Origin: Bacteroidaceae bacterium
Lineage (GTDB): Bacteria > Bacteroidota > Bacteroidia > Bacteroidales > Bacteroidaceae
DNA length: 42,231 nt
Reading direction: 5' to 3'
Assembly: GCA_017483605.1 (NCBI GenBank)
Contig: JAFUWG010000017.1
Location: forward strand, 1 to 42,231
The stretch's first letter is position 1; each line of letters starts with the position of its first letter. Below the pieces are notes generated by a model. The model had not been told where the DNA came from, ran no database searches, and worked only from the letters and a program-made list of their open reading frames with translations. Made by a program: the position numbers and the translations under genes. Of the stretch, positions 1 to 27,257 are shown piece by piece.

Positions 1-363
1 GACCAGCGCGTCCGCTTCATCGGCACCTACGGCCCCCTGTCGTTCTCCGCTGAGAACAAGAGCATCCTGATGATGGGCGCCGCCAACACCCTCTACTATC
101 CCCTCAACGGCGCCAGCATCGGCGCCCAGCGCGCCTACTTCCTCATCGGCGACGACGCCACCGACGACGCCACCGAGCCCAACGCCCAGAACGCCGCCGC
201 CCGCCTCACCGCCTTCAACATCAACTTCGGTGACAGCGAGGCCACGGGAATCATATCAATTGAAAATGGAAAATTGAAAATTGAAAATGACGCCGATGCC
301 TGGTACTCCCTCGACGGTCGCAAGCTGCAAGGCAAGCCCTTGTATATATTAATAATGGTATAA
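1..363 (+). CDS. C-terminal fragment of exported surface protein, sorting tail frameshifted
   Basis: The gene enters from the left edge in frame 1, so only about 120 C-terminal residues are visible. They match the end of the large protein at 694-4584: a 'NTLYYP' segment, a '(A/E)TGII' linker and 'W(Y)SLDGRKLQGKP', the lead-in to a Bacteroidales type IX (T9SS) type A-like sorting tail. In the paralogue the tail continues to 'GIYINNGRKIVIK'. Here frame 1 stops at 361-363, but frame 3 directly after encodes 'VYINNGIKVVIK' and stops at 378-380. Compared with the paralogue, 10 bases are missing between the CCC codon (337-339) and the TAT codon at 345. The reading frame therefore seems broken by a small deletion or a sequencing error. 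If real, the product would lack its tail and may not be secreted or anchored. The linker contains an AT-rich repeat (259-290) unlike the GC-rich surroundings. Confidence 0.75.
   Translation, partial: DQRVRFIGTYGPLSFSAENKSILMMGAANTLYYPLNGASIGAQRAYFLIGDDATDDATEPNAQNAAARLTAFNINFGDSEATGIISIENGKLKIENDADAWYSLDGRKLQGKPLYILIMV
259..290. repeat. AT-rich short tandem repeat inside coding linker
   Basis: Four imperfect copies of an 'ATTGAAAAT/GGAAAATTG' motif form the linker coding for 'IENGKLKIEND', just before the sorting tail. The surrounding coding DNA is strongly GC-rich, so this stretch stands out. It resembles the simple AT-rich linkers seen between genes elsewhere in the window. Confidence 0.6.
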
Positions 364-395
364 AAGTAGTCATTAAATAAAGAACAAACAAGACA

Positions 396-569
396 ATGAA
401 AAAGGATTATTGCAAGCCCACCATGAACGTGGTGAAGATACAGCACTCACAGATGCTCTGCGGCAGCATCACTGGCGTGGAAGGTGGTGACACCGGCATC
501 ACTGGCGGCGGCCCCGGTTCCGGCCCCGCCCGCGCCCGCAGCTTCGACTGGGACGACTGGGACGAATAG
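396..569 (+). CDS. Short peptide (57 aa), MKKxYxKP...DWDxWD family
   Basis: A 57-residue product starting 'MKKDYCKPTMNVVKIQ', followed by 'QMLCGS', a Gly/Thr-rich stretch and the tail 'ARARSFDWDDWDE'. There is no signal peptide or membrane segment. It lies 32 bases after the stop of the truncated surface gene, or 15 after the stop that gene would have without its frameshift. It is clearly related to the 69-residue product at 4601-4810: both share MKKxYxKPxM at the N terminus, a cysteine-serine spot, a glycine-rich middle, G(P)ARA and an acidic tryptophan tail DWDxWD. The second copy occupies the same place behind a paralogous surface gene, which supports it as a real gene. No Shine-Dalgarno is visible here. 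Function unknown; short proteins of this general form are familiar in Bacteroidales but I know of no assigned role. Confidence 0.7.
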   Translation: MKKDYCKPTMNVVKIQHSQMLCGSITGVEGGDTGITGGGPGSGPARARSFDWDDWDE

Positions 570-578
570 CCCCACACA

Positions 579-620
579 GGCCCGCAGGGGTTCTTGCTAA
601 GGCAAGCGTCCCTGCGGGCC
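579..620 (+). terminator. Hairpin after first cassette
   Basis: An 11-bp GC-rich stem, GGCCCGCAGGG (579-589) with CCCTGCGGGCC (610-620), has an inner CTTGC/GCAAG stem. It lies 9 bases after the peptide stop codon. No T-run follows, so it may be an mRNA-end stabiliser or a Rho-assisted end rather than a classical intrinsic terminator. Confidence 0.5.
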
Positions 621-693
621 GAGCGCGACTCCCCCGCGGGTCACAAAGAAAAAAATTTAGGTAACAACAAGTTTAATTTCAAAAACAAAAGCA

Positions 694-3600
694 ATGAGAC
701 AAAAGTTTCTATTCATCCTCGCCTTGCTGCTGACGGCAGTCACGGACGCGTGGGCCGACGAATGGGATGTGGTCTATTGGCAGACGCAGACCAAACAGTC
801 GGACTGGACGGCGCTGAGTGCGGGCTCCACCACGGGGCGGACGCTGGGCAGCGCAGATGCCGTGACGTACTATTACGTCACAAGCAACCTCAGCTTCACC
901 AACTCGACCGCGGGCGGCAGCGGCCTGACTATCCAGGGCACGGTGTATCTCTACATCCCCACGGGCGTGACGCTTACCTGCACAGGCGCCAATGCCAGCG
1001 GACAGACTGGTGGCGGTGCCGGCATCGAGCTGACGCTGGGCAACTCGCTCTACCTCATTGGTGGCGGTACGCTTAATGCCAACGGCGGAAACGCAGCCAA
1101 TGGTGGTAATGGCGGCAAAGGTGTTGACTCCGGTGGCACTTGGGATGAATCGACATCTACAGGCTCAGGTGGCTCTGGCGGCTATGGCGGTGGCGGAGCC
1201 GGTGCCGGCATAGGAACACACGGCGGCAATGGCGGCAATGGCGGTGCTGGCGGTAGCGGCTATACATACACTGATTGGAAAGCACATAATGGAACCGATG
1301 GTATTTCTGGTAGTGCAGGTTCTACCGTCGGTGCGATGGGTGCACTCTATGTGTACCAGGCTACCGGCACTACGGTAAATGCTACTGGCGGCACAGCAGG
1401 TTCAACAGGTAGTAGTGGCGGCGGTCGCGGTCGTGGCCGTATAGATGATGAGGGTTATAACTATAGTGTGTCCGGCGGCGGCGGTGGTGGCGGCGGCGGC
1501 TTCGGCGGCGCAGCCAGCAACATCGGCACCGGTGGTCCCGGCGGTGGTGGTGGCGGCGGCGGTGCCGGCGGTGCACAGGATTGGAAGGGCTCTGGATACT
1601 ACGATGTAACAGCTTACGGAGGCCATGGCGGACAAAATGCGAATGGCACTTTTGCTGCCGATGGCGCAGAAGCTCTGACAAGTCGCCTCGCCATGGAGGC
1701 AGGCTTGGTAGATACCAATTATGCTGGTTGGGATGACGATGACGCAAATTCACCAAGCGGCGCTGCTACTTTTGGCAACGGCGGCGCGGGCGGCGCAGCA
1801 GGTTCTGCCAGCGTCGGCGGCTCCTACGGCACCGTGACGTTGAACTGGACTACGCAGGAGGACGACTGGAACTTGGTTTGCCTTCGGACGAACAGCACCC
1901 GTGCAGACTGGGTTCACCTGGCTGACGGTTCCACAAAGGGCAAGACGCTCGGTGCGGCAGGCACCACGACGTATTATTACACCGCCTTCGACCGCACGTT
2001 CAGCAACAGCAACGCGGGCGGCAGTGGACTGACCATCCTCGGCACGGTGTATCTCTACATCCCCTCCGGCAAAACGATTACCTGCACGGGAGCCAATGCC
2101 ACCGCCCCCACCGGCGGCGGCGCGGGCATTGAACTGGCGGCGGGCAACACGCTCTACATCATCGGCAGCGGCAGACTCGTCGCCACGGGCGGCAACGCTG
2201 CCAACGGCGGCAACGGCGGTGCAGGCGGTGATGCTGATTTCAGTGTGGAAAACTGGGTACAGTCTGGCGCAGGCGGCAAAGGCGGTGACGGCGGCGGCGG
2301 CGCCGGTGCTGGCATCGGTACATGCGGCGGCGCAGGCGGCACAGGCGGTACAGGCGGTGCCAGCAATAAAGTGAATTTACAGGGTGAGCCGACAGGCAAT
2401 GTCGGTGATAACGGTGCCAGCGGCAGCACCGCTGCTGAGATGGGCACGCTCTATATTTACCAGTTGCCTGCCCCTACGACGGAGTTTCATGGTGGCAGCG
2501 TTGGCACAGCCAGCGACAATGGTGGCAACGGAGGTCGCCACGCTTTATATAGGCAAATAACTGGTCCTAATTCCTACGTCACATGGTCCATAGGTGGCGG
2601 AGGAGGCGGTGGCGGCGGCGGCTTCGGCGGCGCAGCCAGCGACATCGGTACCGGCGGCCCTGGCGGCGGCGGTGGCGGAGGCGGTGCCTCAGGAAGCATT
2701 CAAATGAAAAGTGGTACGATTACTTTCTACCATGTAGGAGCCTTAGGAGGTAGTCCAGGTACTAATGTAGATGGAACCATCGCTGGTGCAGGTGAAAGCA
2801 CGCTGATGGTGAGCGATGACAAAAATCTCTTGGCCCGAAAATATCCGGAAAATGTATCTTTTGTAAACCCTTACTGGCAAAACGGCGACAACCGCGCTGC
2901 GGGCGGCAACGGCGGCGGCAGGGGCGCGGCCAGCACGAGCGGCTCGGCCAACGCCGTGACGGCGGGATGGCCCACGCAGGGCAAAGGCATCGAGGACACC
3001 CCCTTCATCGTCAGCAGCACCGACGACTGGAACACGTTTGCCGGCTACGTCAACAGCGGCTACGCCTTCAGCGGCAACTTCGTGAAGCTGGGCGACGACA
3101 TCAGCGTCTCCACGATGGCGGGCACAAGCGATGCCAACTCGTTCCAGGGCACCTTCGACGGCGACGGCCATACGCTGACCTTCACCAAAGGCACGTCCGC
3201 AGAGCCATTCGCCGAAGAATACTGCGCCCCGTTCCGCCATGTGAAGAACGCCACGATTAAGAACCTGCACGTTGCCGGCACCATCTACACAAACCAGAAG
3301 AAGGCCGCCGGCATCGTTGGCATCTCGCATCAGAACCTGAGTATCACCGGCTGCCGCAGTTCCATCAGCATCGTCAGCAGCACCGTTACCGGCGACGACA
3401 ACCACGACGGCACCCACGGCGGACTTGTCGGCACGCTGGCCGGCGAAAACAACACCGTCACCATCGACGGCTGCGTCTTCGACGGCTCCTTCGCCACCAC
3501 CAACGGCACCATCAACTGCGGCGGCTTCATCGGATGGGTGACATATAACAAGCCCACCATCACGAACTCGCTGATGGCTCCCGCCAGCGTGGGCGCAGGA

Positions 3601-4584
3601 ATGGTCGCCAACACCTTCTCCCGCTGGCACACTGGCTACGAGCCGACCATCACGAACAGCTACTACGTCGCCACTACCAACCTGCCCACCGACCAGGGCA
3701 CGGCGGCCTACGCCACCGCCACCGCCCCCGCCAACCTCGGCAGCCTCGTTGAGGACTACGGCATGGTGGAGGCATACACCAACGGCATCCTCGTCGGCGG
3801 CACATACTACGTGGCCCCCGCCACCGTCACCCTCGCCGACGGCAGCGACAACAACACCGCCATCAGCAGCGCTGACGGCTGCGTGGCCGACGTGACGCTC
3901 TCGGGCCGCACGCTCTTTAAGGACGGCTCATGGAACACCATCTGCCTGCCGTTCAGCGTGACGCTCGCCGGTTCGCCCCTCGCCGGAGCCACTGCCCGTC
4001 CGCTCACCAGCGCCAGCATCAGCGGCTCGACGCTCACGCTCACCTTCAGCGACGCCGTGACGACGCTTAAGGCCGGCACGCCGTATATCATCAAGTGGAC
4101 TAAGCCCGACCCCTACGTGGCATACGACGGCACCAATGCCGACGGGACCAGCGACATCGTCAGCCCCGTCTTCAGCGGCGTGACCATCAGCAGCACCGCC
4201 GCCGACATGGTGACCGACGCCGTGACCTTCCGCGGCACCTTCAGCCCCGTGAACATCCCCGGCGAAGACCGCAGCATCCTCTTCCTCGGCTCCGCCAACA
4301 CCCTCTACTATCCCAACGCCGCCATGCAGATAGGCTCCTGCCGTGCCTATTTCCAACTGAACGGCATCACGGCGGGCGACCCCGGCAGCGGTGCTCCTGT
4401 CCGCACCTTTGTGCTCCACTTTGGCGATGAGGACGAGGCAACGGGCATCATCTCCATCTCCAAAGAATCAAAGAGTCAGGGAGTTGCCGACGGCTGGTAC
4501 ACCCTCGACGGTCGCCGCTTGCAGGGTCAGCCCTCGCAGCGTGGCATCTACATCAACAATGGAAGAAAGATCGTAATCAAATAA
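694..4584 (+). CDS. Large exported glycine-rich, beta-repeat surface protein with T9SS-like tail
   Basis: 1296 residues. A Sec signal peptide ends at 'TDAWA' (residue 21). Residues 22-388 and 389-about 760 are two tandem copies of one module: an aromatic start (DEWDVVYW / DDWNLVCL), a beta part with 'GTVYLYIP' and 'GGGAGIEL', then long Gly/Asn/Ala runs of GGNGG and poly-Gly. From about 765 a GLUG/beta-helix-like part follows ('GTFDGDGHTLTF', 'GGLVG', 'GGFIGW'). At about 1062 comes a domain with 'WNTICLPFSV', and the last 24 residues form a sorting tail, 'YTLDGRRLQG...GIYINNGRKIVIK'. The family view is an outer-surface protein exported through T9SS; the substrate or partner is unknown. The poly-Gly parts could pack as polyglycine-II helices, which is inference. 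A peptide gene follows after 16 bases. The gene is more GC-rich than most of the window, and its module DNA is partly duplicated (1474-1566 and 2594-2688). Confidence 0.85.
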   Translation: MRQKFLFILALLLTAVTDAWADEWDVVYWQTQTKQSDWTALSAGSTTGRTLGSADAVTYYYVTSNLSFTNSTAGGSGLTIQGTVYLYIPTGVTLTCTGANASGQTGGGAGIELTLGNSLYLIGGGTLNANGGNAANGGNGGKGVDSGGTWDESTSTGSGGSGGYGGGGAGAGIGTHGGNGGNGGAGGSGYTYTDWKAHNGTDGISGSAGSTVGAMGALYVYQATGTTVNATGGTAGSTGSSGGGRGRGRIDDEGYNYSVSGGGGGGGGGFGGAASNIGTGGPGGGGGGGGAGGAQDWKGSGYYDVTAYGGHGGQNANGTFAADGAEALTSRLAMEAGLVDTNYAGWDDDDANSPSGAATFGNGGAGGAAGSASVGGSYGTVTLNWTTQEDDWNLVCLRTNSTRADWVHLADGSTKGKTLGAAGTTTYYYTAFDRTFSNSNAGGSGLTILGTVYLYIPSGKTITCTGANATAPTGGGAGIELAAGNTLYIIGSGRLVATGGNAANGGNGGAGGDADFSVENWVQSGAGGKGGDGGGGAGAGIGTCGGAGGTGGTGGASNKVNLQGEPTGNVGDNGASGSTAAEMGTLYIYQLPAPTTEFHGGSVGTASDNGGNGGRHALYRQITGPNSYVTWSIGGGGGGGGGGFGGAASDIGTGGPGGGGGGGGASGSIQMKSGTITFYHVGALGGSPGTNVDGTIAGAGESTLMVSDDKNLLARKYPENVSFVNPYWQNGDNRAAGGNGGGRGAASTSGSANAVTAGWPTQGKGIEDTPFIVSSTDDWNTFAGYVNSGYAFSGNFVKLGDDISVSTMAGTSDANSFQGTFDGDGHTLTFTKGTSAEPFAEEYCAPFRHVKNATIKNLHVAGTIYTNQKKAAGIVGISHQNLSITGCRSSISIVSSTVTGDDNHDGTHGGLVGTLAGENNTVTIDGCVFDGSFATTNGTINCGGFIGWVTYNKPTITNSLMAPASVGAGMVANTFSRWHTGYEPTITNSYYVATTNLPTDQGTAAYATATAPANLGSLVEDYGMVEAYTNGILVGGTYYVAPATVTLADGSDNNTAISSADGCVADVTLSGRTLFKDGSWNTICLPFSVTLAGSPLAGATARPLTSASISGSTLTLTFSDAVTTLKAGTPYIIKWTKPDPYVAYDGTNADGTSDIVSPVFSGVTISSTAADMVTDAVTFRGTFSPVNIPGEDRSILFLGSANTLYYPNAAMQIGSCRAYFQLNGITAGDPGSGAPVRTFVLHFGDEDEATGIISISKESKSQGVADGWYTLDGRRLQGQPSQRGIYINNGRKIVIK
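1474..2688 (+). repeat. Pair of about 93-bp near-identical poly-glycine coding repeats
   Basis: Bases 1474-1566 and 2594-2688 encode almost the same poly-Gly/FGGAAS(N/D)IGTGGPGG stretch, with mostly synonymous differences. They sit at equal places in the two protein modules. Such direct repeats could recombine to lose or gain a module. Confidence 0.6.
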
Positions 4585-4600
4585 AAAAGGAGGCAAAGCA

Positions 4601-4810
4601 ATGAAAAAGACATATCAGAAACCAGCAATGGAAGTGGCTGCTGACGTGAGGACTGACATCATCTGCACGAGTGGTGGTGACATCTTAAACATAGACGACG
4701 GTGACATTGGCATCGAGATTGGCGGTGGCAGCGGCGGCGGTGCCCGTGCCCCCATGCGTTTAGGCTCAGACGGCGACATTGACTGGGATCTGTGGGACTT
4801 AGGCGACTAA
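4601..4810 (+). CDS. Short peptide (69 aa), MKKxYxKP...DWDxWD family
   Basis: The product begins 'MKKTYQKPAMEVAADV', continues 'DIICTSGGDILNIDDG', has a Gly-rich middle 'IGGGSGGGARAP' and ends 'DIDWDLWDLGD'. It has no signal peptide or membrane span and is strongly acidic at the end. A clear Shine-Dalgarno, AAGGAGG, lies about seven bases before the ATG, unusual for Bacteroidales and a good sign of real and strong translation. It starts 16 bases after the large surface gene and is probably cotranscribed with it. It is a paralogue of the 57-residue product at 396-569, with the same position and the same conserved ends. Possible roles are a secreted or modified peptide precursor, a small chaperone or escort for the surface protein, or a regulatory peptide; nothing in the sequence decides between them. 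Confidence 0.75.
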   Translation: MKKTYQKPAMEVAADVRTDIICTSGGDILNIDDGDIGIEIGGGSGGGARAPMRLGSDGDIDWDLWDLGD

Positions 4811-25452: not shown

Positions 25453-25460
25453 TACTTTTG
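25453..25460 (+). promoter_or_regulatory. -7 promoter box TACTTTTG of fimbrial operon
   Basis: An exact TAnnTTTG match 60 bases before the ATG at 25521. TTG at 25433-25435 is a possible -33 with short spacing. The reading frame upstream of 25521 would cover this promoter, which favours the later start. Confidence 0.65.
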
Positions 25461-25520
25461 CCACCTAATTATGGTGTTTTCAGACATTTATCACATGTCA
25501 AAACACGGAGTGAGAAAATC

Positions 25521-27257
25521 ATGATGAAAGTTATCAGTTTGGTTATGTGTATGCTTGCTGTAACTTGTGTTACTAAAGCACAGGACACTATCACCATTAA
25601 CAATGCGAAACTGATACGTGTGGGAGATTCCGTGCAACTCTCAATGAGCATTGACATGAGGCAGAGTGAGATAGGGCGGAATGAGATTGTGTTGATAGAA
25701 CCTATCATTGAAGTTCCTACATCGTCAGCAGTCATTCTGCCGTCGGTAGGCATCTATGGGCAAAAGCCCTATTATTACTATCTGCGTTCGGGCAATCGTT
25801 GGCTGCAGCGGCAGGGAGACATAATGCTGAGGGCAAAAAAGGTGAAACAGCCGATTCAATATGTGCATACCATGCCATACGAGGCGTGGATGGACACGGC
25901 GAGAGTCAATATCACCGTCAGCAGCAATCATTATTGTGATGGAACGACAGCATTGACCGACTTTACCGTATTTTCGGCTGAGCCACACGCCGTGCAAGGG
26001 CGGCTGCATACTGAGACCATCTACAAGACGTTGAAAGGGCAGGCACACATCGATTACGTGGTCAATGTCACCACCATCAACCCGACCTATCACGATAACG
26101 CCCGAGAGTTGAACAAGATACGTCAGAGCATTGACTCTGTGCGAACCGATACGGCGAATGCCATCCGAGATATTACCATCAAAGGATATGCTTCGCCTGA
26201 AGGACCTTACGACAACAATGTGCGACTGGCGAAGGGGCGAACAGAGAGCCTTGCACGCCATATCGCTGAAGCATATAACATACCCAATGAGAGGATGCGT
26301 ACAGACTATCAGCCAGAGGACTGGGAAGGACTGTACAAACGGGTGGAGCAGTCAACGCTGCCACATAAGGCAGAAATCCTTGCACTCATTGATGATGTCA
26401 GTCTTAACGACGACCTCGATGCCAAGTTGCAACTCATCAAGTCCGAGTTTCCCTCGGATTATCAGTACATCCTCCGCGACATCATGCCCTACCTGCGTCA
26501 TTCGGATTACACCATTAACTATGATCGGCATGTAGCACGGGTGGTAGAGGCAGGTGCTGACACCATCTGGACACTTCCGTCAGGGGAGCCACTTCCCGAG
26601 AAGACGATGGAGGAGATGCCTAAGCCGTTCCGTCCGTTGCTTGCGGTGAAGACCAACTTGCTCTTCGATGCGTTGGCGACACCCAACTTCGAGATAGAAG
26701 TACCTTTCGGCAGGAACCGGCAGTGGAGCCTGATGGTAGAAGACTGGTTCCCGTGGTGGCTCTTCAGTAAAAATGCCCAGGCAGATGTCAATCCGTTGAG
26801 GCTTCTGGGCGTGCCATACTATCGCGAGAGTGCCAGAGGTTACCAAGATGCCTACGAGGTGTGGACCGTTGGTGTAGAACTTCGTCGTTGGTTCAGCAAA
26901 TGTTGGGGTAATCAGCCGCTCATGACAGGGCATTTCGCAGGGCTTTATGCCGCCAGCGGAAAGTACGACATCGAGCGGAACAGTGTGGGCGACCAAGGAG
27001 AGTTTGTCAGTCTCGGAGCCACATGGGGCTACTCATGGCTGCTGGGCAGACGGCTCAACCTTGAACTTTCAGCCAGCGTAGGCGTGCTGTGGGGACCACA
27101 GCGTCACTACCACGGCGAGTATGACGACACCCACCTTATCTGGAAAGAAAACAGAAACTTCACCTATTTCGGCCCCACCAAACTTAAACTTTCCATTGCA
27201 TGGCTGCTGGGCGACACGCTTCGCAAGAAGCAGAGAAAGGAGGTGAGAGATGAATAA
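25521..27257 (+). CDS. DUF3868 / OmpA-like / DUF3575 fimbria-locus protein
   Basis: 578 residues from 'MMKVISLVMC', with a signal peptide ending near 'VTKAQ' (21). The N-terminal third ('INNAKLIRVGDSVQLSMSID', 'PSVGIYGQKPYYYYLR') looks like DUF3868. The middle has an OmpA-like 'ITIKGYASPEGPYDNNVRLA' and 'GRTESLARHI'. The C-terminal third ('LAVKTNLLFDALATPNFEIE', 'VGVELRRWF', 'LNLELSASVGVLWGP') looks like DUF3575, a beta-rich outer membrane domain. Proteins of these families stand in Bacteroidales fimbrial loci and probably help anchor or assemble pili at the outer membrane. It overlaps the DUF5119 gene by 8 bases. Here the two DUFs seem joined in one chain. The domain names come from memory of typical sequences. 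Confidence 0.75.
   Translation: MMKVISLVMCMLAVTCVTKAQDTITINNAKLIRVGDSVQLSMSIDMRQSEIGRNEIVLIEPIIEVPTSSAVILPSVGIYGQKPYYYYLRSGNRWLQRQGDIMLRAKKVKQPIQYVHTMPYEAWMDTARVNITVSSNHYCDGTTALTDFTVFSAEPHAVQGRLHTETIYKTLKGQAHIDYVVNVTTINPTYHDNARELNKIRQSIDSVRTDTANAIRDITIKGYASPEGPYDNNVRLAKGRTESLARHIAEAYNIPNERMRTDYQPEDWEGLYKRVEQSTLPHKAEILALIDDVSLNDDLDAKLQLIKSEFPSDYQYILRDIMPYLRHSDYTINYDRHVARVVEAGADTIWTLPSGEPLPEKTMEEMPKPFRPLLAVKTNLLFDALATPNFEIEVPFGRNRQWSLMVEDWFPWWLFSKNAQADVNPLRLLGVPYYRESARGYQDAYEVWTVGVELRRWFSKCWGNQPLMTGHFAGLYAASGKYDIERNSVGDQGEFVSLGATWGYSWLLGRRLNLELSASVGVLWGPQRHYHGEYDDTHLIWKENRNFTYFGPTKLKLSIAWLLGDTLRKKQRKEVRDE

Follow-up and report, generated by a model that had tools for sequence, protein, structure and literature searches.

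Organization of the locus

The window analysed here, a stretch of 42,231 nucleotides from Bacteroidaceae bacterium (contig JAFUWG010000017.1), opens with two large surface-protein genes, each followed by a short ORF on the same strand (Table 1). Both short ORFs are present as described in the initial annotation, and the ends of the two large proteins are indeed paralogous (49% identity over 71 aa). The protein next to ORF 1 is represented by its last 120 codons only, owing to the contig end; its stop lies at 361-363, and ...VYINNGIKVVIK-stop can be read to 380 in a different frame. Counted from that position, the gap between surface protein and peptide start is 15 nt for ORF 1, versus 16 nt for ORF 2. 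The short products share the ends noted earlier, M-KK-x-Y-x-KP-x-M and (P)ARA...DWDxWD, of which DWDxWD did not hold as a signature of the family described below. The ribosome site AAGGAGG ahead of ORF 2 was confirmed; a Shine-Dalgarno-like site precedes 21 of the 90 family peptides and is thus no general feature. A Pfam and NCBIfam scan of the window's two peptides gave no convincing family, with one NCBIfam match at chance level (E 0.11).

Table 1. Features of the two peptide-surface protein cassettes in the window (LPP, linear polyphosphorylated peptide).
Feature	Position	Strand	Basis or remark
Surface protein next to ORF 1, 3' end only	1..363	+	Frame broken shortly before last tail residues
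Short ORF 1 (57 aa), predicted to encode a precursor	396..569	+	ORF translation, profile matches, motif statistics
ORF 1 predicted leader, about residues 1-21	396-458	+	Boundary by analogy with LPP
ORF 1 candidate core, from residue 22	459-566	+	Boundary by analogy with LPP
ORF 1 conserved Ser24	465-467	+	At Y+19
Surface protein next to ORF 2, 1296 aa	694..4584	+	N-terminus like a signal peptide; body rich in Gly; tail WYTLDGR...GIYINNGRKIVIK at the C-terminus
Short ORF 2 (69 aa), predicted to encode a precursor	4601..4810	+	ORF translation, profile match
ORF 2 predicted leader, about residues 1-21	4601-4663	+	Boundary by analogy with LPP
ORF 2 candidate core, from residue 22	4664-4807	+	Boundary by analogy with LPP
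ORF 2 conserved Ser24	4670-4672	+	At Y+19

The 1296-aa surface protein has no Pfam or NCBIfam match. Tails of this kind were matched 35 times across the genome (E up to 10), a number that includes the two in the window. Judging from the motif and from the contrast with genera lacking SprA (see below), these proteins are probably T9SS-tailed. The Por_Secre_tail sorting-domain models matched one of seven tails (NCBIfam, E 0.052) and one of six (Pfam, E 0.042), both below cut-off, and did not match the window's own tail. The T9SS translocon is present in the genome, as SprA (TIGR04189) was found over cut-off at G000:C46:7821-15164.

A widespread peptide family with a conserved N-terminus

The peptide family is represented by 19 dispersed profile matches in the genome. 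Within the genus, a profile built from six peptides of this genome found matches (E up to 1) in 43 of 45 genomes; at the level of the taxonomic family, 222 out of the 301 genomes sampled had profile matches. The reading frame is conserved: seven pairs of homologues with the same length were compared, of which two do not differ at the DNA level, and pN/pS is 0.13-0.48 in the other five. Family breadth and frame conservation led us to reject a chance ORF as explanation. When 40 members were compared with Pfam and NCBIfam, no convincing family emerged from the scattered weak matches, the best of which (PF16700, E 5e-4, one member) was taken as chance. No literature on such peptides in Bacteroidota was found in a search beyond whose reach most subscription journals lay.

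Motif statistics were collected for 90 peptides, a set that omits four genus loci (L086, L103 and L117, which have no in-frame Met, and L062). The leader has the consensus M-E-V-V...(I/L)-C-x-S and contains P in all 90 peptides, Y in 89 and K-K in 86 or more. A Ser is found at Y+19 in 68 peptides and at Y+18 to Y+20 in 89, compared with a Ser frequency of 7% elsewhere in the core. The C-terminus is acidic in general, and in 82 of 90 peptides W or F occurs among the six final residues. The N-terminal sequence (Y-x-x-P, then Ser) is similar to leaders to which RiPP recognition elements (RREs) bind.

Association with exported surface proteins

The pairing with exported surface proteins, proposed initially from the two cassettes of the window, is real and general. 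Of the refuting outcomes named in the initial annotation, the two open to sequence analysis, lack of enrichment and lack of frame conservation, were not observed. A strict-pattern tail lies directly upstream of 13 of the 19 own-genome peptides versus 9 of 114 background genes, five of these nine looking like true tails and the background consisting of ten arbitrarily chosen stretches, mostly contig starts. Such a tail was also found upstream in 43 of 63 loci of the genus, in 18 of 22 loci of other genera (taken from the best profile matches of the family-wide search) and for 9 of 25 peptides in a sample of the order outside the family; in G099, where SprA is present, it preceded none of four peptides. 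Strict tails numbered 19 in the first 29 genus loci and 62 across the 90 peptides of the motif set, as counted with a hand-made regular expression that misses evident tails (e.g. L045, L064) and by eye gives false positives at L049 and L205. Among the genomes of the 22 loci, the SprA test covered G347 alone, in which SprA was not found, yet tails are present.

In genera without SprA, the peptide gene precedes a lipoprotein gene in 19 of 29 loci; inspection by eye suggests that L204 is a spurious call among these 19 and that seven of the ten loci not counted also have a lipoprotein. True tails are absent from all 29 loci, the sole pattern match being L205. Of these loci, 26 come from genomes that tested negative for SprA and three from genus g191, another genome of which was negative, and the SprA-lacking genomes were mostly chosen for having peptide matches. 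A partnership with T9SS cargo only was rejected, because these genera keep related peptides beside lipoproteins and because three own-genome peptides likewise precede lipoprotein-like genes, by 33-47 nt.

Core and cargo similarity were compared over 56 peptide-cargo pairs. Similar cargoes go with similar cores (Mantel r 0.63, p 0.0002); among distant pairs no co-variation was detected (Spearman 0.05, p 0.055).

Putative maturation enzymes and their linkage to the peptides

Two enzyme loci were found in the genome. Locus C6 carries genes for an HprK-like protein, an S26-like protein and a PqqD protein in a row, and locus C10 for an HprK-like protein, a PqqD protein and an ABC exporter; together they provide two PqqD/RRE proteins, two HprK-like kinases, one signal-peptidase-like protease and one ABC exporter. 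PF05402 (PqqD-like, discrete RRE) was over cut-off in 31 of 34 genomes, with two matches in the own genome. The kinase gave weak matches only to sequence models; its structural model (pLDDT 92.8) matches PEPCK and HPr kinase structures, and the motif GxSGTGKSTH is invariant in 18 of 18 aligned sequences. In the S26-like protein (158 aa in C6), S33, H71 and D86 fall in Ser/His/Asp columns invariant in 13 of 13 sequences; its L281 homologue matches an archaeal signal peptidase model (E 2e-7, below cut-off), and a Foldseek search of the own model returned LexA folds as best (E 3e-4) and signal peptidase (E 1e-3), with modest TM-scores. The exporter of C10 (544 aa) combines PF00664 and PF00005. 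PF14907 marks an NTP transferase in each of the clusters L281 and L282; next to the two enzyme loci of the genome itself, no NTP_transf_5 gene was seen.

The precursors of the genus lie mostly far from enzyme genes, one own peptide being 2.6 kb from the ABC gene (L278). In three relatives, four loci have the peptide gene inside a cluster of RRE, kinase, protease and exporter type. In G395, the peptide follows the ABC gene of a full set by 16 nt (L281), and a second locus reads peptide, lipoprotein, full set (L282). With gene names given partly by resemblance, the peptide of G063 lies just before HprK (L334), and the locus of G274 reads peptide, lipoprotein, HprK, S26, PqqD, NTase, ABC (L324). 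The L324 peptide was first found by a leader pattern that matched three times in 211,843 bases, one match appearing spurious; the same pattern had no match in 181,725 background bases and one in five shuffles. The leader model was trained with the peptides of L278, L282, L284, L285 and L324 included, so scores at these loci are not independent.

Across SprA-lacking genomes, a PqqD gene is no more than 10 kb away from 9 of 41 peptides, versus roughly 0.5 expected from a rough density, a comparison in which the 10-kb limit was set after the data were seen and neighbouring peptides of one cluster are not independent. At the level of the order (n=295), the kinase was found in 8 of 10 peptide-bearing versus 28 of 285 other genomes (Fisher p 9e-7); the kinase search gave no match in the peptide-bearing genomes G129 and G337, and the PqqD search none in G337 and G442. 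Nine of the 28 kinase-bearing genomes without peptide match were read, and a leader peptide was seen near the kinase in G274, a weak one in G157 (E 0.56) and none in the remaining seven. Among 20 PqqD loci read, a leader peptide was present in seven, most of which were chosen for proximity already known, and absent from 13.

Proposed role and alternative explanations

Judging from these sequence comparisons, we think it likely that the two short ORFs encode precursors for an LPP-like RiPP system whose genes are scattered through the genome, in which RRE, kinase, protease and exporter would mature peptides that partner adjacent surface proteins. Of the options listed in the initial annotation, a secreted peptide modified elsewhere fits best, as it would accommodate a leader-like motif together with enzymes encoded in trans; nothing seen here points positively to an escort or regulatory role. 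The RRE would bind the Y-x-x-P leader, the kinase would phosphorylate the conserved Ser, the protease may cut the leader off near residues 21/22 (the core often starting C-x-S), and the ABC transporter would export the core. The mature phosphopeptide may then act at the cell envelope with, or on, the surface protein of the adjacent gene, either a T9SS-type cargo encoded upstream or a lipoprotein encoded downstream. About twenty dispersed precursors would be handled by the two enzyme loci; they are considered clients of these loci because the leader is shared.

It is unlikely that the peptides are instead unmodified cytoplasmic small proteins, serving as cargo-specific escorts, anti-folding factors or regulators of the adjacent exported protein. 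Cassette pairing and the co-inheritance of core and cargo among close homologues would suit such a role, as would the fact that 87 of 90 peptides are without signal-peptide-level hydrophobicity, which three reach; it leaves unexplained the Y-x-x-P leader with its nearly invariant downstream Ser, the peptides inside the enzyme clusters of some relatives, and the similar N-terminus of peptides placed before lipoproteins. Quite improbable, too, is that the enzyme clusters handle adjacent peptides only, the peptides beside surface proteins being orphan relatives with another function or none: the distance of most own-genus peptides from enzyme genes and the 13 PqqD loci without leader peptide are in its favour, whereas 89 of 90 peptides, of which almost all are dispersed, retain the leader and Ser geometry, and kinase presence tracks peptide presence.

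Beyond the maturation of dispersed precursors, we advance a wider reading tentatively, as possible: in Bacteroidaceae-type gut bacteria, LPP-type RiPPs may form a general cell-surface companion system and not rare secondary metabolites, one enzyme set maturing about twenty phosphopeptides, each of which would be encoded next to one particular surface protein, be inherited together with it and act on it, whether that protein leaves by the T9SS or the lipoprotein route. If true, LPPs would thereby gain a first clue to their function, and their placement beside surface proteins would make that role testable. Should Bacteroidota have a counterpart with many precursors in each genome, the LPP class would extend to a major gut phylum, and many unannotated short genes would acquire a family and a pathway along with a leader motif.

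Comparison with known systems

Paeninodin-type phosphorylated lasso peptides likewise combine a PqqD/B1 RRE, an HprK-like kinase, a nucleotidyltransferase and a transporter (PMC8498205), and lasso leaders are also of the type Y/W-x-x-P (PMC13381572). In the present clusters, an S26-like protease is found in place of the B2 peptidase. That the family consists of macrolactam-ringed lasso peptides with a Y-x-x-P-x-L leader is nevertheless judged very improbable: the paeninodin-family precursor model finds weak matches in 2 of 40 members, the best at E 0.014, and the C10 PqqD weakly matches lasso PqqD models and TbiB1 (E 0.056), while the B2 leader peptidase (PF13471, Transglut_core3) exceeds its cut-off in 1 of 29 genomes, the own genome scoring 22.3 bits against a cut-off of 26. 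The HPr-rel-A system (TIGR04352/TIGR04353) shares an HprK-related kinase and a PqqD-like protein; the matches are weak and far below the curated cut-offs.

LPPs were described in 2026 and, according to that report, are restricted to Bacillota and of unknown role (PMC13381572). As presented there, their clusters encode a discrete RRE, an HprK-like kinase, an SpI-like leader peptidase and an MsbA-like exporter, with an NTP transferase in some, and their precursors of 35-200 aa have a Y-x-x-P N-terminus and a variable C-terminus; this is paralleled here, with the NTP transferase seen in clusters of relatives and not beside the own loci, as is the location of some clusters next to polysaccharide-type genes (here L283 and L284, by eye). 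In the LPP motif YxxPxVLxHQxIxFET/xxS the phosphorylated Ser stands at Y+18, which is core position 3 (PMC13381572), and the Ser conserved in the present family lies at nearly the same distance. Relative to that account, the present system differs in belonging to Bacteroidota, in its 19 dispersed profile matches in one genome versus 1-3 ORFs per LPP cluster, in a leader of the form M-E-V-V...(I/L)-C-x-S instead of VLxHQxIxFET, and in that most precursors adjoin the gene of an exported surface protein. By analogy, it is probably a dispersed Bacteroidota counterpart of LPPs, in which exported, Ser-phosphorylated peptides would accompany surface proteins.

The two short ORFs and the peptide family

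The initial annotation placed two short ORFs, here predicted to encode RiPP precursor peptides, directly after large surface-protein genes, an arrangement that was seen for both ORF 1 and ORF 2. Their genome comprises 3.06 Mb in 56 contigs (82% complete), the window being its contig C53. The first surface-protein gene is truncated at the contig end, and the last residues of its tail, a C-terminal secretion-type (T9SS-like) motif, are out of frame and still readable in another frame up to a stop at 380, a break that reflects either an error in the assembly or recent pseudogene formation. ORF 1 starts 15 nt past this stop, and the spacing of ORF 2 is similar (16 nt). No convincing family was found for either peptide in Pfam or NCBIfam. 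A near copy of the ORF 2 peptide (86% identity across 56 aa) is found in the same genome, some 240 bases away from the end of a contig, and is without a normal start region. The window also encodes a protein with DUF3868 and DUF3575 domains, which may belong to a fimbrial locus.

Coordinates and gene order of the features described (G, genomes, G000 being the own genome; C, contigs; L, loci)
Feature	Location	Length	Remarks
First surface-protein gene	window 1-380		truncated
ORF 1	window 396-569	57 aa	open frame
ORF 2	window 4601-4810	69 aa	open frame
DUF3868/DUF3575 protein	window 25458-27257
Near copy of ORF 2 peptide	G000:C9:103911-104093 (L008 3912-4094)
Dockerin-like repeat protein	L010 3400-6398
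Run of peptide genes	L238-L240 (G476:C1:1795000-1852000)	51 kb	eight leader-peptide matches
Enzyme set	own genome C6		HprK-S26-PqqD
Enzyme set	own genome C10		HprK-PqqD-ABC
Enzyme cluster with peptide	L281, G395		peptide after ABC gene
Enzyme cluster with peptide	L282, G395		peptide before lipoprotein and full enzyme set
Enzyme cluster with peptide	L334, G063		peptide just before HprK; peptide E 0.0066; gene names partly by resemblance
Enzyme cluster with peptide	L324, G274		peptide-lipoprotein-HprK-S26-PqqD-NTase-ABC; gene names partly by resemblance

A profile built from six own-genome members matched 43/45 genomes of the genus (E up to 1), while a 40-member profile gave 19 matches in the own genome and matched 222/301 genomes of the family (E up to 0.001) and 10/295 evenly drawn genomes of the order (E up to 0.01). 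The 90 genus members share a constant N-terminal shape, K-K-x-Y-x-x-P-x-M-E-V-V, about eight residues and (I/L)-C-x-S, followed by a variable middle and an acidic C-terminus whose final six residues include W or F in 82/90. The Ser lies 19 residues after the leader Tyr (Y+19) in 68/90 peptides and between Y+18 and Y+20 in 89/90, whereas Ser makes up 7% of the remaining core positions; hydrophobicity at the level of a signal peptide was found in 3/90. Among seven equal-length homologous pairs, the DNA was identical in two and pN/pS was 0.13 to 0.48 in five.

Association with adjacent surface proteins

The gene directly upstream carries a tail, scored with a strict hand-made pattern, for 13/19 own-genome peptides (14 with the broken tail before ORF 1), against 9/114 background genes from ten arbitrarily chosen stretches of this genome (Fisher p 2e-8), so that the placement beside tailed genes, raised initially as a matter to be checked against chance, proved to exceed it. 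In three further cases the peptide gene is followed, after 33-47 nt, by a lipoprotein-like gene (585-630 aa); one peptide has no neighbour of either kind, and another is close to a contig end. Upstream tails were found at 43/63 and 19/29 loci of the genus, at 18/22 loci of other genera, and at 9/25 in the order sample (G155 4/5, G337 4/4, G255 1/4, others 0/12, including G099, which has SprA, a T9SS protein). In G289, three of four peptides are preceded, by eye, by another short tail. Peptides at L090, L116, L144, L149 and L155 lie behind genes with another short tail, of the NG...I...Y-N-x-x-G-x-x-(I/V)-K type, which escapes the strict pattern. The assignment of the tails to T9SS is by motif, sorting-domain models having matched 1/7 tails, below cut-off; SprA was found in the own genome. 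G347 (L215-L219; stated completeness 100%) has 16 peptide matches and tailed genes and gave no SprA match; its SprA may be absent from the assembly. At L010, a tailed 409-aa protein with a peptide of its own is encoded directly downstream of a protein in which two dockerin-like repeats were recognized by eye.

SprA is absent in 16/16 genomes of two genera, of which 14/16, most of them picked for having matches, encode related peptides. A true upstream tail was found at 0/29 loci of SprA-lacking genera (three of them from a third genus), and the directly downstream gene has a lipoprotein signal at 19/29, versus 4/127 background genes under a strict pattern. Five of these downstream genes were scanned: Mfa_like_1 was over cut-off in one and below it in one, a glycan-binding domain was found in one, and two gave no match. 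Since tails are absent and lipoproteins adjoin the peptides in these genera, the constant feature of peptide loci is the neighbouring surface protein rather than T9SS. In the L238-L240 run, several peptides directly precede lipoprotein genes (about 750-1100 aa), and the run also includes PqqD and a set of kinase, peptidase and ABC genes.

Core similarity follows similarity of the tailed surface protein (cargo), i.e. joint inheritance (Mantel r 0.63, p 0.0002, 56 pairs), a correlation undetectable in distant pairs. Gene placement and co-inheritance suggest that the peptide may act with the adjacent surface protein.

Candidate maturation enzymes

A run of peptide genes in one genome without SprA also encodes an HprK-like kinase, an ABC transporter and a small protein that aligns with signal-peptidase-like ones. 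PqqD/RRE (PF05402), the RiPP recognition element, was over cut-off in 31/34 genomes searched, twice in the own genome, and a PqqD gene lies at most 10 kb away for 9/41 peptides of SprA-lacking genomes, where we estimate about 0.5 to be expected. The set recurring at these loci comprises the kinase (~300 aa), an S26-like peptidase (about 150-165 aa; Ser, His and Asp kept in 13/13) and PqqD (~89 aa), often with an ABC exporter (~545 aa) and in some with an NTP_transf_5 protein. PDB sequence searches gave weak matches at best; structure models matched the folds of PEPCK and HPr kinase for the kinase (pLDDT 92.8), and of LexA and, more weakly, signal peptidases for the peptidase (pLDDT 83.6). Ten close relatives of one own-genome enzyme gene come from Bacteroidaceae or Bacteroidales assemblies, several being ruminant or horse by title. 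At L283 and L284, PqqD-NTase-HprK genes are flanked by glycosyltransferase-like and polysaccharide-export-like genes (by eye).

Four enzyme clusters in three relatives contain a peptide gene, one of these relatives (G274) having no profile match. Counting against such linkage, no leader peptide was present at 13/20 PqqD loci read. Across the order sample the kinase occurs in 8/10 peptide-bearing genomes (no match in G129 and G337) versus 28/285 others; of these 28, all profile-negative, nine were read, and a leader peptide was found nearby in one, a weak candidate in one and none in seven.

Comparison with linear polyphosphorylated peptides

The linear polyphosphorylated peptides (LPPs) of Bacillota, described in May 2026, are, according to the paper describing them, restricted to that phylum and of unknown role, and involve a SpI peptidase, an RRE, an HprK-like kinase, an NTP transferase and an MsbA-like exporter; their precursors combine the leader YxxPxVLxHQxIxFET with a subsequent x-x-S, whose Ser receives phosphates from the kinase, and the peptidase cuts after the T with RRE aid (PMC13381572). 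Its main text contains no word beginning Bacteroid-, and our literature searches turned up no description of comparable peptides from Bacteroidota. Leaders of the Y-x-x-P type are recognized by the RREs of lasso peptide systems (PMC10368454, PMC12710340). From these RREs, the LPP-like parts and the similar Ser position, we infer a scheme in which the RRE would bind the leader, the kinase would phosphorylate Ser24, the peptidase would cleave near residue 21/22, and the exporter would release a core beginning C-x-S.

By analogy, the present system looks as if it works like that of LPPs; we do not assign it to the LPPs proper, because the leader consensus differs. Its parts are of the same types as those of LPPs, and its Ser mostly lies one residue farther from the Tyr. 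The polysaccharide-type surroundings of L283 and L284 recall the capsule loci that house LPP clusters in Bacillota. The dispersed, surface-paired layout of the present family is new with respect to LPPs.
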